The notes beneath the pieces are model-generated. The model was not told where the DNA came from, did not search any database, and saw only the letters and a list, made by a program, of their open reading frames with translations. From contig JAQQWL010000003.1 in the NCBI GenBank assembly GCA_038363925.1, positions 1,550,001 through 1,614,000 of the forward strand: a DNA stretch of 64,000 bases. Direction: 5' to 3'. Source of the DNA: Apiospora phragmitis (lineage: Eukaryota; Ascomycota; Sordariomycetes; Amphisphaeriales; Apiosporaceae). The stretch's first letter is position 1. Each line of letters opens with the position of its first letter. Position numbers and translations under genes: made by a program. This document shows, one piece after another, positions 6,854-64,000 of this stretch.

Positions 6854-8073
6854 ATGGGCGCCGCAGCTCTCCCGCTGCCACCGACTGGCAGTCTACCCCC
6901 TCTGCGCAGGCCTGATATATTCACGGAGGACCAGGTCCTATCAAGCCTGCAAAACTTGGAGGCCATTTACTGCCCCATCCCGCTGTCTCTCGCTTTGCAG
7001 TCGCCCCAGAAGGCAAAGAAAAACCCATTGCTTGTTGCGTCCACACCTCCGGGTCGACTCTGGCTACGTCTCCGAGGATGAGAACGACAATGAAGATGCG
7101 GAAAAAATGAAGCAAGCACTGGAGGAACTGCGGACCGATGCGTTCGAACGGGATTTTGCCATCCGCTGGCTAACGTCCTTCGTCTCGCGGGCCGAGGAAA
7201 TGATTCTCATCCCCGACGACGCGCGCCAACGGGCCACCGACAAGGCCTACTGCATCCTCGAGTCCTTCACGAGCTCCCCCGACGAGGAGGGAGCAGGAAG
7301 ACGAGGGCATCGTGCGCGACTTCTCCTTCACGCTGTGCTCCTCGGCGCCCTCGCCGGTGACGGGCTCCTGCAAAAATGGTATTAGTGTGCGCCTAACCGA
7401 CGGTCCCTTGGCGAGCACGGACCACACCGCCGTGGGCCTGCAGAGCTTCGCGGCCTCCATCATCCTGCCCGAGCTCATGTGCGCCGACCCAGGCCGGTTC
7501 GGACTCGAGGCCCTCGCCCAGAAGGGACGCGCCCCGCATTGTCGAGCTGGGCGCCGGAACGGGACTCGTCGGACTGGTCCTGGCGCAGATGCTGCCGCAT
7601 CTCGGCGTCGCGCAGCCCAACCCCCTGATCGCGACCGATTTCCACCCGGTCGTTCTCGAGAACCTGCGCGCCAACATTGCCAGCAACTTCCCCGGCGTGG
7701 AGAGCCCGCCGGTGGACGCCTGCCACCTTGACTGGTCGGCACCGTCCCGCGCGCCACCGCTGGATCTCCCCGCCGACATGCTGGTCGCCACGGACGTCAT
7801 CTACGCCCCGGAACACGCCGTCTGGCTGCGGGACTGCGCTGCGCAGCTCTTGGCGCCCGACGGCCTCTTCTGGGTCCTCATCGCCGTCCGCACCACCGGC
7901 AAGTTCGAGGGAATTAGCGACACGGTCGAGGCGGCTTTTGGCGCGAGCGGTGTCCCAAGGATGCGGGAGGGCGCAAGCTGTCGATCCTCGACATCGAGAC
8001 GCTTGCGAAGCCGGATGGGCTCGGGCGTGGGGATGAAAGCGGTTATAAGCTGTACCGTATTGGCTGGAAATAA
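6854..8073 (+). CDS. EFM2-like SAM-dependent protein methyltransferase, four frame breaks
   Basis: Class I methyltransferase of the METTL21/EFM type, whose yeast member EFM2 methylates a lysine of elongation factor 2. Read across frames, the protein shows an N-terminal helical region (FTEDQVLSSLQNLEAIYCP, then KMKQALEELRTDAFERDF), a beta region (SVRLTDGPLASTDHTAVG), the SAM-binding motif I (IVELGAGTGLVG, near 7,540-7,575), the acidic motif (LIATDFHPVVLENLRANI), a post-motif (DMLVATDVIYAPEHA) and the end KLYRIGWK before the stop at 8071-8073. The frame is broken four times, at GGG 7051-7053, GGG 7289-7291, CCCC 7532-7535 and GG 7949-7950. The first three look like one extra base and the last like one missing. 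The expected length is about 405 residues. The exact start is uncertain; the ATG at 6854 is in frame with the first block. The target protein is inferred. Confidence 0.75.
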
Positions 8074-54162: not shown

Positions 54163-54800
54163 TATTATAACCTGACTTAAATTATACGGCTAAAACCTAT
54201 AAAACCACCGGGCCGAATTTATGATACCCCGTTTAAAGTATGATATCACGGCTACCGACCGCGCCGCCAACTATACTAATATAAGCGTACTAATATTATA
54301 AAAGCGCACGGCGACCACGACGATAATATCTTAAACCGTAGTAGGCTAGACACGGCTTAAAGAAGTAGTAAGGATAACGTTACGTAATAAATTACAAGGA
54401 TTACTAGGAACGGCGAAATAAGTTAATAATTTAACTAATAAAGGGATTACCCGGATTACTAAAATATAAAGGTGAGCTAAGTAATATAACAGATTAGTAA
54501 AGGAGGAGATTAAATATATAACGACGGATATTCCCTACGTATTTTATATAGATACTTTTTATTTTAATAATTAATTTAAATATTAAACTTAATTTATTAA
54601 TAAAGTAAATAGCTTTAATAAAACTATTATAAATACCCCTAAGCTTACGTACTTTAATTACTTTCGTTTTTATAAGTTATTACCCGCTATATTAATAAAA
54701 GCGACTTTTATCGCACGTTTAAATACTCTCTTATATTATTAATATAAACCTTAGTACGTCTTACTAAGTTTCTTTTAAAACTTAGATAGCGTTCGTTATA
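54163..54800 (+). repeat. 3' LTR of the chromovirus
   Basis: Starts TATTATAACCTGACT, the RIP-altered form of TGTTACGACCTGACC, and ends GTTCGTTATA. Its length of 638 bp is identical to the 5' LTR; visible differences are transitions. Confidence 0.92.
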
Positions 54801-54881
54801 TTAAGTTAATAAGCGCCTCGGGTTATCTTAGCGCCGTTTCCGGGGTGGGGCTAGTCGTATAAGTTAAGCTTATTTATAATA
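54801..54881 (-). mobile_element. Right part of the split minus-oriented LTR
   Basis: Begins with the second copy of TTAAG and continues the LTR interrupted at 47,126 (words GCGCCTCGGGTTATCTTAG also present in the solo LTR near 42,570). It ends ATTTATAATA, the degraded reversed LTR start. Confidence 0.75.
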
Positions 54882-57800
54882 TTATTACTTTTCTTTTATT
54901 TATTTTATTTTTAAAGTAATTATTATAAATATTTAGTACGTATCGTCGTATTAAGTTTAATAAGTTCTTTTTTTCTTATATTATACATTTATTATAATAT
55001 TTAATCGTATAGAAAAATGTTATTTTTTACCGAAAGTTTCTACGGCTCGTTATTATTATTTTATTTTATCCTTTAACGAGTTTAGTTTTAAAGTTATACC
55101 GTGTTCTCGTTACCCTTTTAAAGGGTAGAAGTGTATTATAATAGAAGGCGTCGATAAGTGTTAAAAGTGTACTCGTTCGGCCTCGGTTTGCGATAAGTTA
55201 AGCGTCCCTCTTTATTCTTTTAAGCGGATCTAAAAATAGTATCGTCGCCTTAGTTATAAAGAGGTTTTAACCGAAGAGCGGTTTTTTAAGCTCTAAAAGC
55301 GGTATTAAAAGGAAATAAACGAGGCTATTACTCGTTTAATTCGTTTATTTAAATAGAAAGAGATAGCTCGTTTTTAAGGTATTAAGCTAGTATAGCGTAG
55401 CCTTCGCTTTTTAAACGAGTTAAAGGAATAGGAGCGCCGGGAGTTAGAGGCTATTATAGCCGTGTAATCGCGTAAAGGTTTCGGCGTGGTTGATTAGAAT
55501 ATTATAGATTTCTCCTTTTTTCCGGATCTTCTCGATCTGTTTACGGTCGCGCTTTAAACGCCTAGAGAGCTTTAGCGGTATTTTTTAAATATTTTTTAAG
55601 TTTTTAAATAAATTTTTATTAGGTAATCTTTTTATTTAATGAGGTATATTTATTCTTTTTTTATTCGTTTTTTATTTAAAATTATTTTAATTTTATATTC
55701 GTATTAATACGTTTTGATTTTTAGTTATATTTTAATTTTTATATTTTCGGTAATTAGTTTAAGTAATAAGATATAAAATATAAGGTGTATTTATATTATT
55801 TTAAATAATAATAATTAATAGTTAGTTTTTAAAATAATTTTTACGATTTTAAATAGTTCGATCTTTTTAAAATCTAGTTTTTCGCTTAGTCGTTTAGTTT
55901 TAATATTTTATTATAAGAGGTAAACTTTTTTTTTAATTAAGGTTAGTCCTTTTAACCTAGTTTAGTCGGCGCGTTTTTTTATTTATTATTAGAAAAAGGT
56001 GAGGTTTTATTATAGTATTATTTAAAGCTTTTTTAATTTTTCGATTTATATGGTCGCGATAGGTATTAACTCTTTTTTTAAGGGTGTTTTAATAATTTCT
56101 AGGTTATACCCGTAATTTATTCGAAATAGTGATATGTGTATAACTTTATTATTTATATTATTATAAGCGAATTATATTATAAGTAATAATTATACCTAGT
56201 TATTTTATTTATAATTAACGTAGTAACGTAAGTATTATTTTAAGGTTTAATTTATTCGCTCGGTTTATTTATTTATTTAAGGGTGGTAAGCTGTGGATAG
56301 CTTGTGCTTTACGCCGAGTTATATTATAAGCGATTTTTAAAACTTAGTGGTGAATAGCTTGTCTCGGTTAGAAATAATCGTTTCGGGCAGTTTATACTAG
56401 TTAACGATTATTTATAAGAACGTGTAGGCTAGGTTATTAGTATTACTAGACTTTTTATACGGTAGGAAGTAGGTGTATTTCGTGAGTTTATTTATAATTA
56501 TTAAAATATTATCGTAATTAATTTTAATTAAAGGTTTTTTTAATCGGGATAGTTTAATTATAAAATCGAGTACGATTATTTTTTATATTTTATACAGTGA
56601 TAGAATTAATTATAATTCTTTATATAGTTAATATTTATTAGTTTTAGTTTTACTATAAAGGTTATATTCACTAATGACCTTAATTACGGCTGACTTAAGG
56701 TTTTCGTAATTAAATTGCTTAGTAATTCGTTTTTAAGTTTTAAATACTTTTTAGTATTTATACGTAAAGTGTTTATAAAATTCCTTAATAAAATTTTTAC
56801 GGTATTATTTAAAAATATAGATCTTGCTTTAATAAAAAAAGAGGTTATTTTATTTCTCGAGTTAAGCCTTAGTATAATTAATAAGATCCGGGGCCTAATT
56901 TAATTATTAAAACTTAGAAACCTAATCGTTATTATATTATATAGAACTTATAGTATTTAATTATCGCGACGGCGTAAGGTTACCGTTTTAGTTATAAGTT
57001 AAAATAGTCTATGTTTTGGGCGGGACTTTTTCCTAGTGGCTCGGTCGTTAGCTTAGTATGTCGGCGTAACCGTTCTTATTACCTTTGTAGTAGATATTAA
57101 TAATGCTAAATTTTAATAAGAATTTAAACTATTATATTTATTATTTATTTAACTTTTTAATAATAATAAATATTATAAGGTTTTTATAATCAGTATAAAC
57201 TTTCATTAGTTTTATCGTTTTATTAAAATAATGTTTTTATATTTTATATATTTTAATATTAGTTATTAATTCTTTATTCTAGATTTAATAGTTAAGTTCT
57301 AGCTTATTTAATTTTTTAGAAAAAAATGTAACGGGTTGTGCTTTTCCGTTATTATTTTATTAGTTTAATTACCTTTTAATCGCATAGTCTAATACGTCGG
57401 TTTTAATTTTAAATAATTTAAAAGGGTTTATTATGCAAAGTATTAATTCGTTAAGGATTCGTTCTTTAATATTATAAAAGGCTTGGTTTTCTTTCTTTAT
57501 TTATCGAAATAGCTCGTCTTTTTTTGTTAGGTTTATTAAAGGTATCGCTAACTTATTAAATTCGGGGATAAATATCCGGTAATAGTTAGTTAGTTTTAAG
57601 AAGGATTTAATTTTTATAGCGCTTGTAGGCGTCGGTTATTCTTTAATTGCTAAAATTTTAATAGGTTTTATCCGGATTTCTTTAAAAAATATTATATATT
57701 TTATAAATATAACGGATTATTAATAGAACTCGCTCTTCTTTAAGTTAATTAATAAGTTAATGTCTTATAGTTTTTAAAGTATTAATTTTACGTGTTTTCG

Positions 57801-59336
57801 GTGTTATTTATTATTTTCGGTGTAGATTAAGATATTATCGAGGTATATTACAATAAATTTATTAAGGTATTCTCGTAAAACGTGGTTAATTATTATTTAA
57901 AAATTAGTTAACGCGTTAGTTAAGCCGAATAGCATAGCTTGATATTTAAAATACCTGTATTTAGTTCGAAACGCGGTTTTCTAGTTTTCTTCTTTTTTAA
58001 CTCGGATCAGGTTATATACGTTAAAGAGATCAAGTATTGCAAAGATCTTAGCGTGTAATAGCTTATTTTATAAATCGCTAATGAAGGGTAAAAGGTACCG
58101 ATTTTTAATAATAATTTCGTTAAACTTCCGGTAATCGATATATATACGTTATTTAAGTTTCTCGTCCTTACTTTTTTTCGGGACGAAAAGTATAAGGAAA
58201 CCTCTTAACGATATAAATAGTTATATAACTCTTTTTTCGAGGTTTTTCGTAATATATTCTTTTAAAGCTTCTTTATATTCTTAATTTAGTTTATAAATCG
58301 GTATAAAAAAGGGTTTTTTTCCTTCTTTTAACGGTATTCTATAATTTTACCGTGTATAAAGCGGTAACTCGTTTTTTAATTTCTCATTAAAAAGGGCTTC
58401 GAACTGTTAATACTTTTTTAATACGGTTATTATTATTTTTAGCTTAAGCTTTTTAATAATAACGTATATTTTTAAAACTTTAAGTTTATTAAAAGGTCGC
58501 TTTTTAAACCGTTACCTATTAATTAAACCTTTTTTTAATATATTTTATTAAAATTAACCTAATTTTTATTAATTTTAAAATTATTTACTCGTAATTAAAA
58601 TATTTTTAAAATTATATCGTATTTTATAACGTTTATAATATTATACGTAATTTTTTTATAACGTTTTTTAATATTAATTAAAAAGTTTGCGACTTTTTTA
58701 TATATATTTTTATTATTATATATTATAAGTTTTTTATTAACGGTTCTAAGTCGGTATAAAGCGTTTTTTTCTTATTATTTTAAAGTTAAGCTATTAATAA
58801 TTCGTAATAAAATATAATTACTTTACGCTCCGCTATTTAGTAACGCTCGAATAATAACTCTTTTTATTTCGATTATTAGTACGATATAGTTATAGATGTT
58901 TTAGTTATCCGTTATTAAATATAAAGATCTATCGTGTCCCGTCGAGTATCGTCCTTTTATAACTGACGGGGGTTATTTCCCGACCGTTATAATAAGTTTT
59001 ATTCGTCGGCTATTCGTAGGTAGCGACGAGTTTATACGTACGGTGTTTCGCGTTCGTACGGCGGTGGCGGTGTTTAGGATCTTGTTATTATAGCAGGTCT
59101 TTTAACTTAGGAGTTCTAGGTGTCTTAAGAGCGCTGTGCGTCTATTTTAAATATTTAGTAAGCTCGTAATTTTTCTTATACGTGCTATAAGTATTTATTA
59201 TTAATATAATCTTTTTAATCCTGCTTTTTTAAATAATATTCTCGAGATTATTAAGGGGTCCTCTTAATTAACAAGTAAGCTCGGCGGGGGTTAAGTATAG
59301 TTATTTTAACCTTTTTAATAAAGTGATCGAGGTATA

Positions 59337-59466
59337 TATTACAGTGCGTGTGGACTAACCACTGCGCTATAAAGCAAAAGCTTCGGAAATGACTAGATAA
59401 GTCATTTCTATTTAATTCTATACTATAAGCGTTACCCCGCACGGGAGATAACCGTCGGCCGTAACA
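59337..59466 (-). repeat. 3' terminal repeat of the TRIM candidate
   Basis: On the minus strand it starts TGTTACGGCC. It holds the A-box-like word at 59,351-59,369 and a perfect 9-bp hairpin stem (59,386-59,394 with 59,400-59,408, loop AGATA). It is the less mutated of the two repeats. Confidence 0.85.
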
Positions 59467-59645
59467 CTATACCTCCTCTTTAAAGGCATGCCCTTATGCC
59501 TTAGTGTAATAAGTTTTAGACGCACATGATTTAGGCTAAGTATAGAGAAACTCTAGGGCTTTTACATAAGGGACGTACAAGGCCCTGCCCGCTTACTAGC
59601 GATCTTACTTAGGCAACTAAAGAGAGCTCCTGTCCGGCAAGTATA

Positions 59646-59657
59646 GGAATCGAACCC
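59646..59657 (-). promoter_or_regulatory. B-box-like Pol III promoter element
   Basis: Minus strand GGGTTCGATTCC, a match to the tRNA T-loop/B-box consensus, followed on the same strand by CTATACTTGCC as in a tRNA 3' half. The matching tRNA 5' acceptor strand is not present, so this is not an intact tRNA gene. Confidence 0.65.
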
Positions 59658-59691
59658 ACGTCTCCTATTCAGCAGGTTGGTCCAGTTATTA

Positions 59692-59821
59692 TATTACAGT
59701 GCGTATAGACTAACCACTACGCCATAAAGTAAAAGCTTCGGAAATAACTAGATAAGTTATTTCTGTTTAATTCTATATTATAAGCGTTACCCCGTACGGG
59801 AGATAACCGTCGGCCGTAATA
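59692..59821 (-). repeat. 5' terminal repeat of the TRIM candidate
   Basis: Differs from the other repeat at about 11 of 130 positions, all transitions and nearly all CpA/TpG to TpA. The A-box-like word here (59,706-59,724) reads TGGCGTAGTGGTTAGTCTA. The 9-bp hairpin is still perfect because both arms changed together. Confidence 0.85.
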
Positions 59822-60103
59822 GTATAGTTATTTAATTAAGTATTTATTAATCTTTTAAAAAAAAAAAAACTTTTAAACTTTTTTATTAAGTACTCGGTAT
59901 AATTATTATAAATATAACCGATTTAAGCGAGTAAGAAGTAATTATTATATATTAACGAAATTTTAAAATCGTTATTAATAGCGTAGCTTTTTTTTATTCT
60001 TTATTCGAGTTTATATATAATAAGTATTTACCGTAGTTTTCGTAATTTAAAAAGTGTAATTCTTAAGATCGTTAACTATTCGTTAATATTTAGGTTTCGA
60101 GGC

Positions 60104-63248: not shown

Positions 63249-63999
63249 TGTTACGACCTGACCTAAACAGGCGGCCAAGATCCACCACCCGGCACGGAGC
63301 CAGGATAACCCGAGGCGTTTACGAAATCCTATATAACAAACTAATCCATAATAACGCCCCATTAACGATAATAGCCCCACTATACCGCTATAGAACGTCG
63401 ATAAGTAATAACACGATAATAGCACACTACAACCAGCCAATTAAGGATGGACCAAGGTGGACAAATAAGAATAGATAAATAAGAACGGACAAACAGAGCA
63501 AGGCAGATAATAAAGGATGGCTTAAAAGTTACATATAGATAAGATAAGGGAGCTACAAGATCACGACGCTCCTAGTGGTCCAGGAGCGACGAAATCACGA
63601 CGCTCCCGGTGATCTAGGAGCGACGGGATCACGACGCTCCCGGTAATCCAGGAGCGACGGGATCACGACGCTCCTAACGATCTAACTCGGATTAATAAAG
63701 GAAGGATTAAATATATAACGATAAAATATTCCTTATATATTTTATATAAATATTTTTTATTTTAATAATTAATTTAAATATTAATCTTAACTTATTAATA
63801 AAGTAAATAGTTTTAACGAAACTATTACGAATACCTTTAAATTTACATACTTTAATTACCTTTATTCTTACTAATTATTACTTATTATATCGGTAAAAAT
63901 AACTTTTACCGCATATTTAAATACTCTTTTATATTATTAATATAAACCCTAATACGTTTTTATTAAGTTTTTTTTAAAACTTAAATAATATTCGTTATA
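63249..63999 (+). mobile_element. Plus-oriented gypsy LTR at the window edge
   Basis: Begins TGTTACGACCTGACC, identical to the chromovirus 5' LTR start, and ends TTCGTTATA one base before the window ends. Length 751 bp. It is little mutated up to about 63,690. It could be a solo LTR or the 5' LTR of an element lying beyond the window; the right flank is not available. Confidence 0.8.
63542..63682. repeat. 34-bp tandem repeat in the LTR at 63,249
   Basis: Three full units and a partial one, each reading ATCACGACGCTCC...GGAGCGACG. Each unit holds a 6-bp inverted repeat (CGCTCC/GGAGCG). The same unit, inverted, occurs in the solo LTR at 42,232-42,330. Confidence 0.8.
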
Positions 64000-64000
64000 T

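Follow-up and report, generated by a model that had tools for sequence, protein, structure and literature searches.

The window, the whole 64,000-nucleotide stretch of Apiospora phragmitis DNA analysed here, shows a sharp compositional change: positions 1-40000 have a GC content of 54% and a TpA/ApT ratio of 0.72, and its last 24 kb (40000-64000) are AT-rich (GC 26%) with a RIP-like ratio of 1.37. The AT-rich part contains a TRIM-type LTR element of 485 bp (59337-59821), the sense strand of which is the minus strand, as indicated by the purine tract, the A-to-B order of its promoter boxes and its candidate binding site. It is flanked by a perfect GTATA duplication (59332-59336 and 59822-59826) and bounded by a 5' LTR (59692-59821, sense 1-130) and a 3' LTR (59337-59466, sense 356-485). 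These 130-bp direct repeats align without indels, as the first-pass annotation had described, and their 11 mismatches are all transitions. The TG...CA ends given there do not apply to this copy, the outer ends of which are TATTAC...GTAATA; TG and CA ends occur in other copies, such as L033 and L041.

TRIMs were taken as elements with two direct LTRs of ~100-250 bp, a total length below 1000 bp, no coding capacity, a 4-6-bp target site duplication (TSD), a polypurine tract ahead of the 3' LTR and a primer-binding site that matches a tRNA. Total length ranges from 481 to 498 bp across the copies of the family, and the absence of an ORF was confirmed in the window copy, where the longest six-frame stop-to-stop stretch is 44 codons. 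The polypurine tract claimed earlier corresponds to a purine-rich run on the minus strand (59467-59481, sense 341-355) that adjoins the 3' LTR.

In sense order, U3 is followed by a 12-nt segment (59743-59754, sense 68-79), here called the self-primer segment, the first base of which is the predicted RNA start, and by the conserved TCCGAAGCTTTT stretch (sense 80-91) with its TTTT at 59731-59734. Next come the A box (59714-59724, sense 98-108), the LTR end at position 130, a single base, and a 12-nt candidate primer-binding site (59679-59690, sense 132-143) complementary to the self-primer segment. The B box, GGTTCGATTCC (59646-59656, sense 166-176), lies 36 nt inside the internal region, beyond the LTR, within a tRNA-like T-arm (59643-59659, sense 163-179), so that the binding site falls between the two boxes; a conserved stretch of 61 columns, a variable stretch, the purine tract and the 3' LTR complete the element. 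The 3' LTR repeats the self-primer segment through to the TTTT as a predicted 24-nt terminal repeat, R (59376-59399), with the TTTT itself, the predicted RNA end, at 59376-59379. It also repeats the A box (59359-59369), which has no element B box downstream. The division of the promoter boxes between repeat and interior was therefore correctly recognised at first, on the minus strand, while their distance, put at about 48 nt, is 68 nt when measured between box starts and 57 nt when only the gap separating the two 11-mers is counted.

Other features of the window include a RIP-damaged remnant of a gypsy-type reverse transcriptase with nine internal stops (57714-58184, minus strand), ~1 kb from the element, and a 313-bp direct repeat (54492-54801 and 63690-64000), 83% identical and 9.5 kb apart, with the element between its two parts. 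GUF1 in the window shares 93% identity with its Apiospora aurea counterpart, among the best 120 of 7944 matches.

Copies, mobility and RIP-type decay

Genome searches with three query copies, in each of which 40 candidates were scored (of 184 for the window copy, and of 190 and 194), yielded at least 70 copies in the A. phragmitis genome, which were fetched and oriented; because of the 40 candidates scored per search, the copy counts are lower bounds. An exact 5-bp target duplication was present in 49/70 copies, with 43 different sequences, and one within a single transition in 61/70, compared with 0, 0 and 1 of 70 in shifted-window controls. This is the outcome, many copies with different duplications, by which the first-pass annotation had proposed to judge mobility. 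By eye, at least two solo LTRs, each flanked by a 5-bp duplication, lie beside copies (loci L038 and L020). The element is thus a member of a real, once-mobile, multi-copy family, and the mobility shown is of the LTR type. As to whether the repeats are the ends of a longer element, the six copia and five gypsy stretches read held no longer relative, bar weak AT-rich matches.

After the duplication count one incomplete copy (L015) was dropped, leaving 69 copies with 68 distinct alignment rows, which fall into the subfamilies s1 (n = 7), s2 (n = 42) and s3 (n = 20). Comparison of the two LTRs within each copy revealed no transversion in 41/69 copies and one in 17/69, with a mean of 15.6 transitions, which fits RIP-type decay and not great age; the copies share a RIP-like TpA/ApT ratio of 1.64.

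A search with the s2 border pattern gave four matches, three of them known copies and one with three mismatches. Two copies lie ~0.5 kb apart on contig C3 (L135 and L129, G000:C3:834278-835881), and at L017 a second, partly inverted copy adjoins the first. No tRNA genes were found beside the copies at 53 loci.

Promoter boxes, putative self-primer segment and candidate binding site

An A and B box pair was obtained in 2 of 20,000 dinucleotide shuffles of the window copy, in 2 for L016 and in 1 for L026, a copy that no longer contains a strict pair itself. Conservation of the boxes in other copies, put forward earlier as a test, depends on how matches are counted. When RIP-type C/T and G/A changes are allowed it holds, with the A box fitting 69/69 5' LTRs and 68/69 3' LTRs and the B box fitting 67/69 copies. 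Under strict matching it does not: the 5' A box is retained in 9/69, the 3' A box in 47/69 and the B box in 19/69, and a strict sense-orientation pair remains in 6/69. RIP has thus damaged the A box much more heavily in the 5' LTR than in the 3' LTR, perhaps owing to the deeper position of the former within the repeat.

Between s1 and s2 none of the 52 A and B columns differ, compared with 27/178 columns in U3 and the variable interior (p = 0.001). Between s2 and s3 the boxes are no different from the rest of the element (p = 0.54); within s2 conservation is high along the whole element, and A and B are not special there. In the purine tract the subfamilies are alike in their purine/pyrimidine pattern. 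When the window copy and 10 further loci were scanned with Rfam, neither a tRNA nor a 5S match emerged, and the T-arm was recognised in 4/10 loci, below the gathering score; recognition of a T-arm and no tRNA makes a functional tRNA unlikely. On this sequence evidence, the family was probably transcribed by RNA polymerase III (Pol III).

A feature absent from the first-pass annotation is the covarying complementarity between LTR and binding site. The 12-nt site, one base inside the 5' LTR, is complementary to a 12-nt stretch of the LTR itself, an arrangement characteristic of Tf1-type self-priming. The segment of the 5' LTR forms on average 11.3 (s1), 11.6 (s2) and 10.35 (s3) of 12 pairs with the site, and that of the 3' LTR 11.0, 11.4 and 10.35. 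Cross-pairing of s2 with either s1 or s3 yields only 7.4-8.6 of 12 pairs. Crosses between s1 and s3 reach 10.6-10.95, about as good as pairing within each subfamily, so the covariation rests on s2 versus s1/s3.

Across the alignment of 69 copies, of which 68 rows are distinct, pairing holds in 93.6% of cells, compared with 81.3 +/- 0.9 in shuffles, 90 cells are changed on both sides (37.1 +/- 4.0 in shuffles) and the covariation score is 0.348 (0.150 in shuffles), each value reached by 0/500 shuffles, which ignore relatedness, the subfamilies representing few independent events. Two of the five measures are not above shuffles, namely pairs changed on both sides (5 versus 5.9) and further pair types (16 versus 15.2). 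Sliding the alignment by 1-3 columns lowers pairing to 36-55%. The outermost pair fails in 23/67 rows and the ninth in 13/68.

The purine/pyrimidine majority differs between s2 and s3 at 16/511 columns, nine of which make up the three matching triplets of the 5' LTR, the site and the 3' LTR (p = 1.2e-7). Between s1 and s3, 0/36 columns differ in the segments and site, compared with 27/178 in U3 and the variable interior. By these counts, segment and site act as a single unit that is exchanged as a whole. Pairing between segment and site is better than at all other places in 7/7 s1, 41/42 s2 and 12/20 s3 copies (the other s3 copies giving seven ties and one loss), and the corresponding helix is present in the predicted fold in 6/7, 31/42 and 1/20 copies, respectively. 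At the level of sequence, the covariation of LTR and site is the signature of Tf1-type self-priming, and we consider self-priming of this family highly probable.

Transcription, priming and origin

Taking boxes and self-primer together, we lean towards a self-primed TRIM whose RNA would be made by Pol III through the split A-B pair, with enzymes provided in trans. Pol III would be recruited by the pair, which is complete only in the 5' LTR plus interior, would start at or near the 12-nt segment, a position chosen by analogy with Tf1, and would terminate at the TTTT in the 3' LTR. The product would be an RNA of ~380-390 nt with a 24-nt terminal repeat; the predicted length is 379 nt for the window copy and 379-391 nt among the lengths listed for 65 of the 69 copies, and the predicted R is 24 nt in 67/69 copies and 23 nt in two. 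The first 12 nt of this RNA would fold back on the site that lies between the two boxes, where they would act as primer for reverse transcription, and reverse transcriptase and integrase would be supplied by some LTR retrotransposon. A 3' LTR or solo LTR would retain half a promoter, and as the promoter is complete only across the LTR border, the solo and 3' LTRs of the family are predicted to be silent. More tentatively, the 5' end of the RNA, as defined by Pol III, may itself be the reverse-transcription primer, and the family may represent a self-primed TRIMp3 lineage in Ascomycota, apart from Helenus and Cassandra. If so, it is conceivable, with similar reserve, that primer, A box, site and B box are interlocked in a single module spanning the LTR border.

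The same self-primed TRIM could instead be transcribed by RNA polymerase II (Pol II) from U3, with the A and B boxes as relics of a captured tRNA-like sequence or serving another use. The predicted RNA start precedes the A box by 30 nt, a long distance for Pol III, and from there the enzyme would have to pass one TTTT ~21-24 nt downstream, in the 5' LTR. Of 24 tRNA genes taken as nuclear, 6 have T4 and 12 have T5 as their first T-run, which makes TTTT a possible but weak stop. By eye, a TATA-like stretch precedes the segment in s1, and the self-primed elements Tf1 and Tj1 are described with mRNA in the parts of PMC7175516 and PMC4600332 available to us. No such TATA-like stretch was seen by eye in s2 and s3, however, the A and B columns show no difference in the s1/s2 comparison while U3 differs, and almost every LTR has a TTTT after the segment (68/69 and 66/69). 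We therefore regard Pol II transcription as rather unlikely, though it is the strongest of the competitors to a Pol III transcript.

Another possibility is that the pairing of LTR and site has a structural role in the RNA (folding, packaging or dimerisation), and that a tRNA primes, as in Helenus. A tRNA primer was sought by comparing five border pieces with 46 distinct tRNA sequences (50 loci, several of them mitochondrial), a set without Ile, Gln, Cys or a recognised nuclear initiator Met, the incompleteness of which leaves this explanation some room. No exact complement longer than 9 nt was found between the border pieces and this set, and the 9-nt complement lies further inside than the binding site. 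The site occupies the position expected of a primer-binding site, one base inside the LTR, and exchange of triplets at three places is the expectation for a primer and its site, which together render a purely structural role improbable. Contig C19 of genome G000 looks mitochondrial and long, its tRNA genes extending from ~4 kb to 221 kb and its reverse transcriptases containing internal TGA.

A self-primed, gene-less TRIM would need a helper, and the copia and gypsy elements of the genome were surveyed for one. The copia set comprised six RVT_2 places, all fetched, and the gypsy set five stretches (L118, L119 and L136-L138) of ~150 RVT_1 matches listed, some of organellar type; the rve profile gave six weak matches in the genome. 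No binding site in common with the TRIM was seen in the copia stretches read. Two of them (L078 and L079) have the border GTTAT(G/A)AGCCCGG, which we take to be of the half-tRNA-Met type. The border of L082 is ATTAAGAGTCT, given as the binding site of FunCo1 in the available part of PMC5445492, and these three are copia elements with half-tRNA-type binding sites. No LTR pair was found in L081 and L083, and the border of L080 was unreadable. Among the five gypsy stretches, neither a shared binding site nor a clear self-primer was detected. One of them, L136, is fairly GC-rich and has LTRs at 355-951 and 7125-7721 that open TGTTACGACC and, by eye, a TSD of ATTAC; its binding site points clearly to neither a tRNA primer nor self-priming, and a T-arm-like palindrome at 1353 is possibly due to chance. 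As an inference, gypsy would be a better guess for the helper than copia.

These searches also bear on whether the family arose by internal deletion from an autonomous gypsy element of the genome that already carried the boxes and self-primer, in which case it would be no separate family. The LTR of L136 opens TGTTACGA after a G-rich tract and has a 5-bp TSD, and s2 and s3 copies likewise open TGTTACGA (by eye); a true parent may lie among the remainder of the ~150 reverse-transcriptase matches listed, of which five gypsy stretches were read. Against this, similarity of the TRIM to the five gypsy and six copia stretches is weak and AT-rich (best E 3.2e-4, mostly involving one AT-rich copy), and the gypsy stretches read share neither binding site nor clear self-primer with it, leaving such a derivation very improbable. 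A SINE or other tRNA-derived repeat mimicking an LTR element would account for the A and B boxes, the 0.5-kb length and the lack of an ORF, but SINEs have no LTRs and insert by target priming with variable duplications, and the fixed 5-bp duplications, matching terminal repeats, solo LTRs, purine tract and boxes spanning the repeat border make this explanation hardly credible. The hybrid of TRIM and SINE suggested at first is accordingly apt for the promoter only, insertion being of the LTR type.

If the self-primed Pol III element is real, its ~380-390-nt RNA, seeming to combine Pol III transcription and self-priming, would be a very small natural system in which one could ask how a reverse transcriptase comes to prime from the end of the very RNA that it copies, and what keeps primer and binding site in step. 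For the latter, s2 and s3, which differ mainly in the coupled triplets (9/16 columns), would provide a natural experiment.

Comparison with known systems

A tRNA-like TRIM in fungi is already known, although the first-pass annotation was aware of none with such a layout: Helenus (PMC10886601, also named in PMC12859917), a TRIMp3, comprises TRIMs with tRNA-derived sequence whose A and B boxes both lie in the LTR. According to the portion of PMC10886601 at hand, its fungal hosts in Table 1 are Basidiomycota only, and most fungal binding sites match tRNA anticodon regions, some of them tRNA 3' ends. The Apiospora family resembles Helenus as a short, non-coding LTR element with tRNA-like Pol III boxes, a purine tract and, as in fungi, a 5-bp TSD, and its tRNA-like sequence is probably not a functional tRNA, as that of Helenus is not (PMC10886601, in part). 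It is unlike Helenus in that its B box is internal, its host is an ascomycete and its site matches its own LTR. Because the B box lies outside the LTR, the family was not filed as Helenus, although judging from its boxes it would work like a TRIMp3.

Cassandra, the sole validated Pol III-driven TRIM lineage in the same partial source (PMC10886601), has an RNA with an 18-bp terminal repeat, a Pol III-type start in the 5' LTR and a stop in the 3' LTR. The Apiospora RNA would share the start in the 5' LTR, the stop in the 3' LTR and a short terminal repeat, here predicted at 24 nt. The 5S-derived sequence of Cassandra lies wholly in the LTR, its hosts are plants and no self-priming is reported in the part of PMC10886601 available, whereas the Rfam scans found no 5S rRNA-derived sequence in the window copy or the 10 other Apiospora loci.

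Bivalve TRIMs and the fungal copia element GalEa are alike in lacking a tRNA-type binding site, and other forms of priming have been considered for them (PMC6934838, PMC5445492, in the parts accessible). Their hairpins lie inside the internal region, unlike the Apiospora site, whose covarying partner is in the LTR; for GalEa, these texts, as far as available, state that no U5 repeat is complementary to the internal hairpin.

The closest parallel for priming is with Tf1 and the sushi-type Ty3/gypsy elements and with Tj1, in which the site is complementary to approximately the first 11 nt of the RNA, located in the LTR (PMC7175516, PMC4600332, PMC6317226, each in part). The 11 nt with which Tf1 RNA begins are complementary to its binding site and, once cleaved off, act as the primer (PMC7175516), and self-priming of Tj1 is described likewise (PMC4600332), as far as the available text of each goes. 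Self-priming has thus been described, in the available parts of these three sources, for gene-bearing elements that carry gag and pol, unlike the Apiospora element, which is gene-less and has tRNA-like boxes. Among the matches listed in the open-licence literature, there was neither a self-primed TRIM nor a TRIM with a split tRNA-like promoter. Relative to these systems, what is new here, as read from the sequences, is a B box outside the LTR together with a covarying putative self-primer in a TRIM of the Pol III type.
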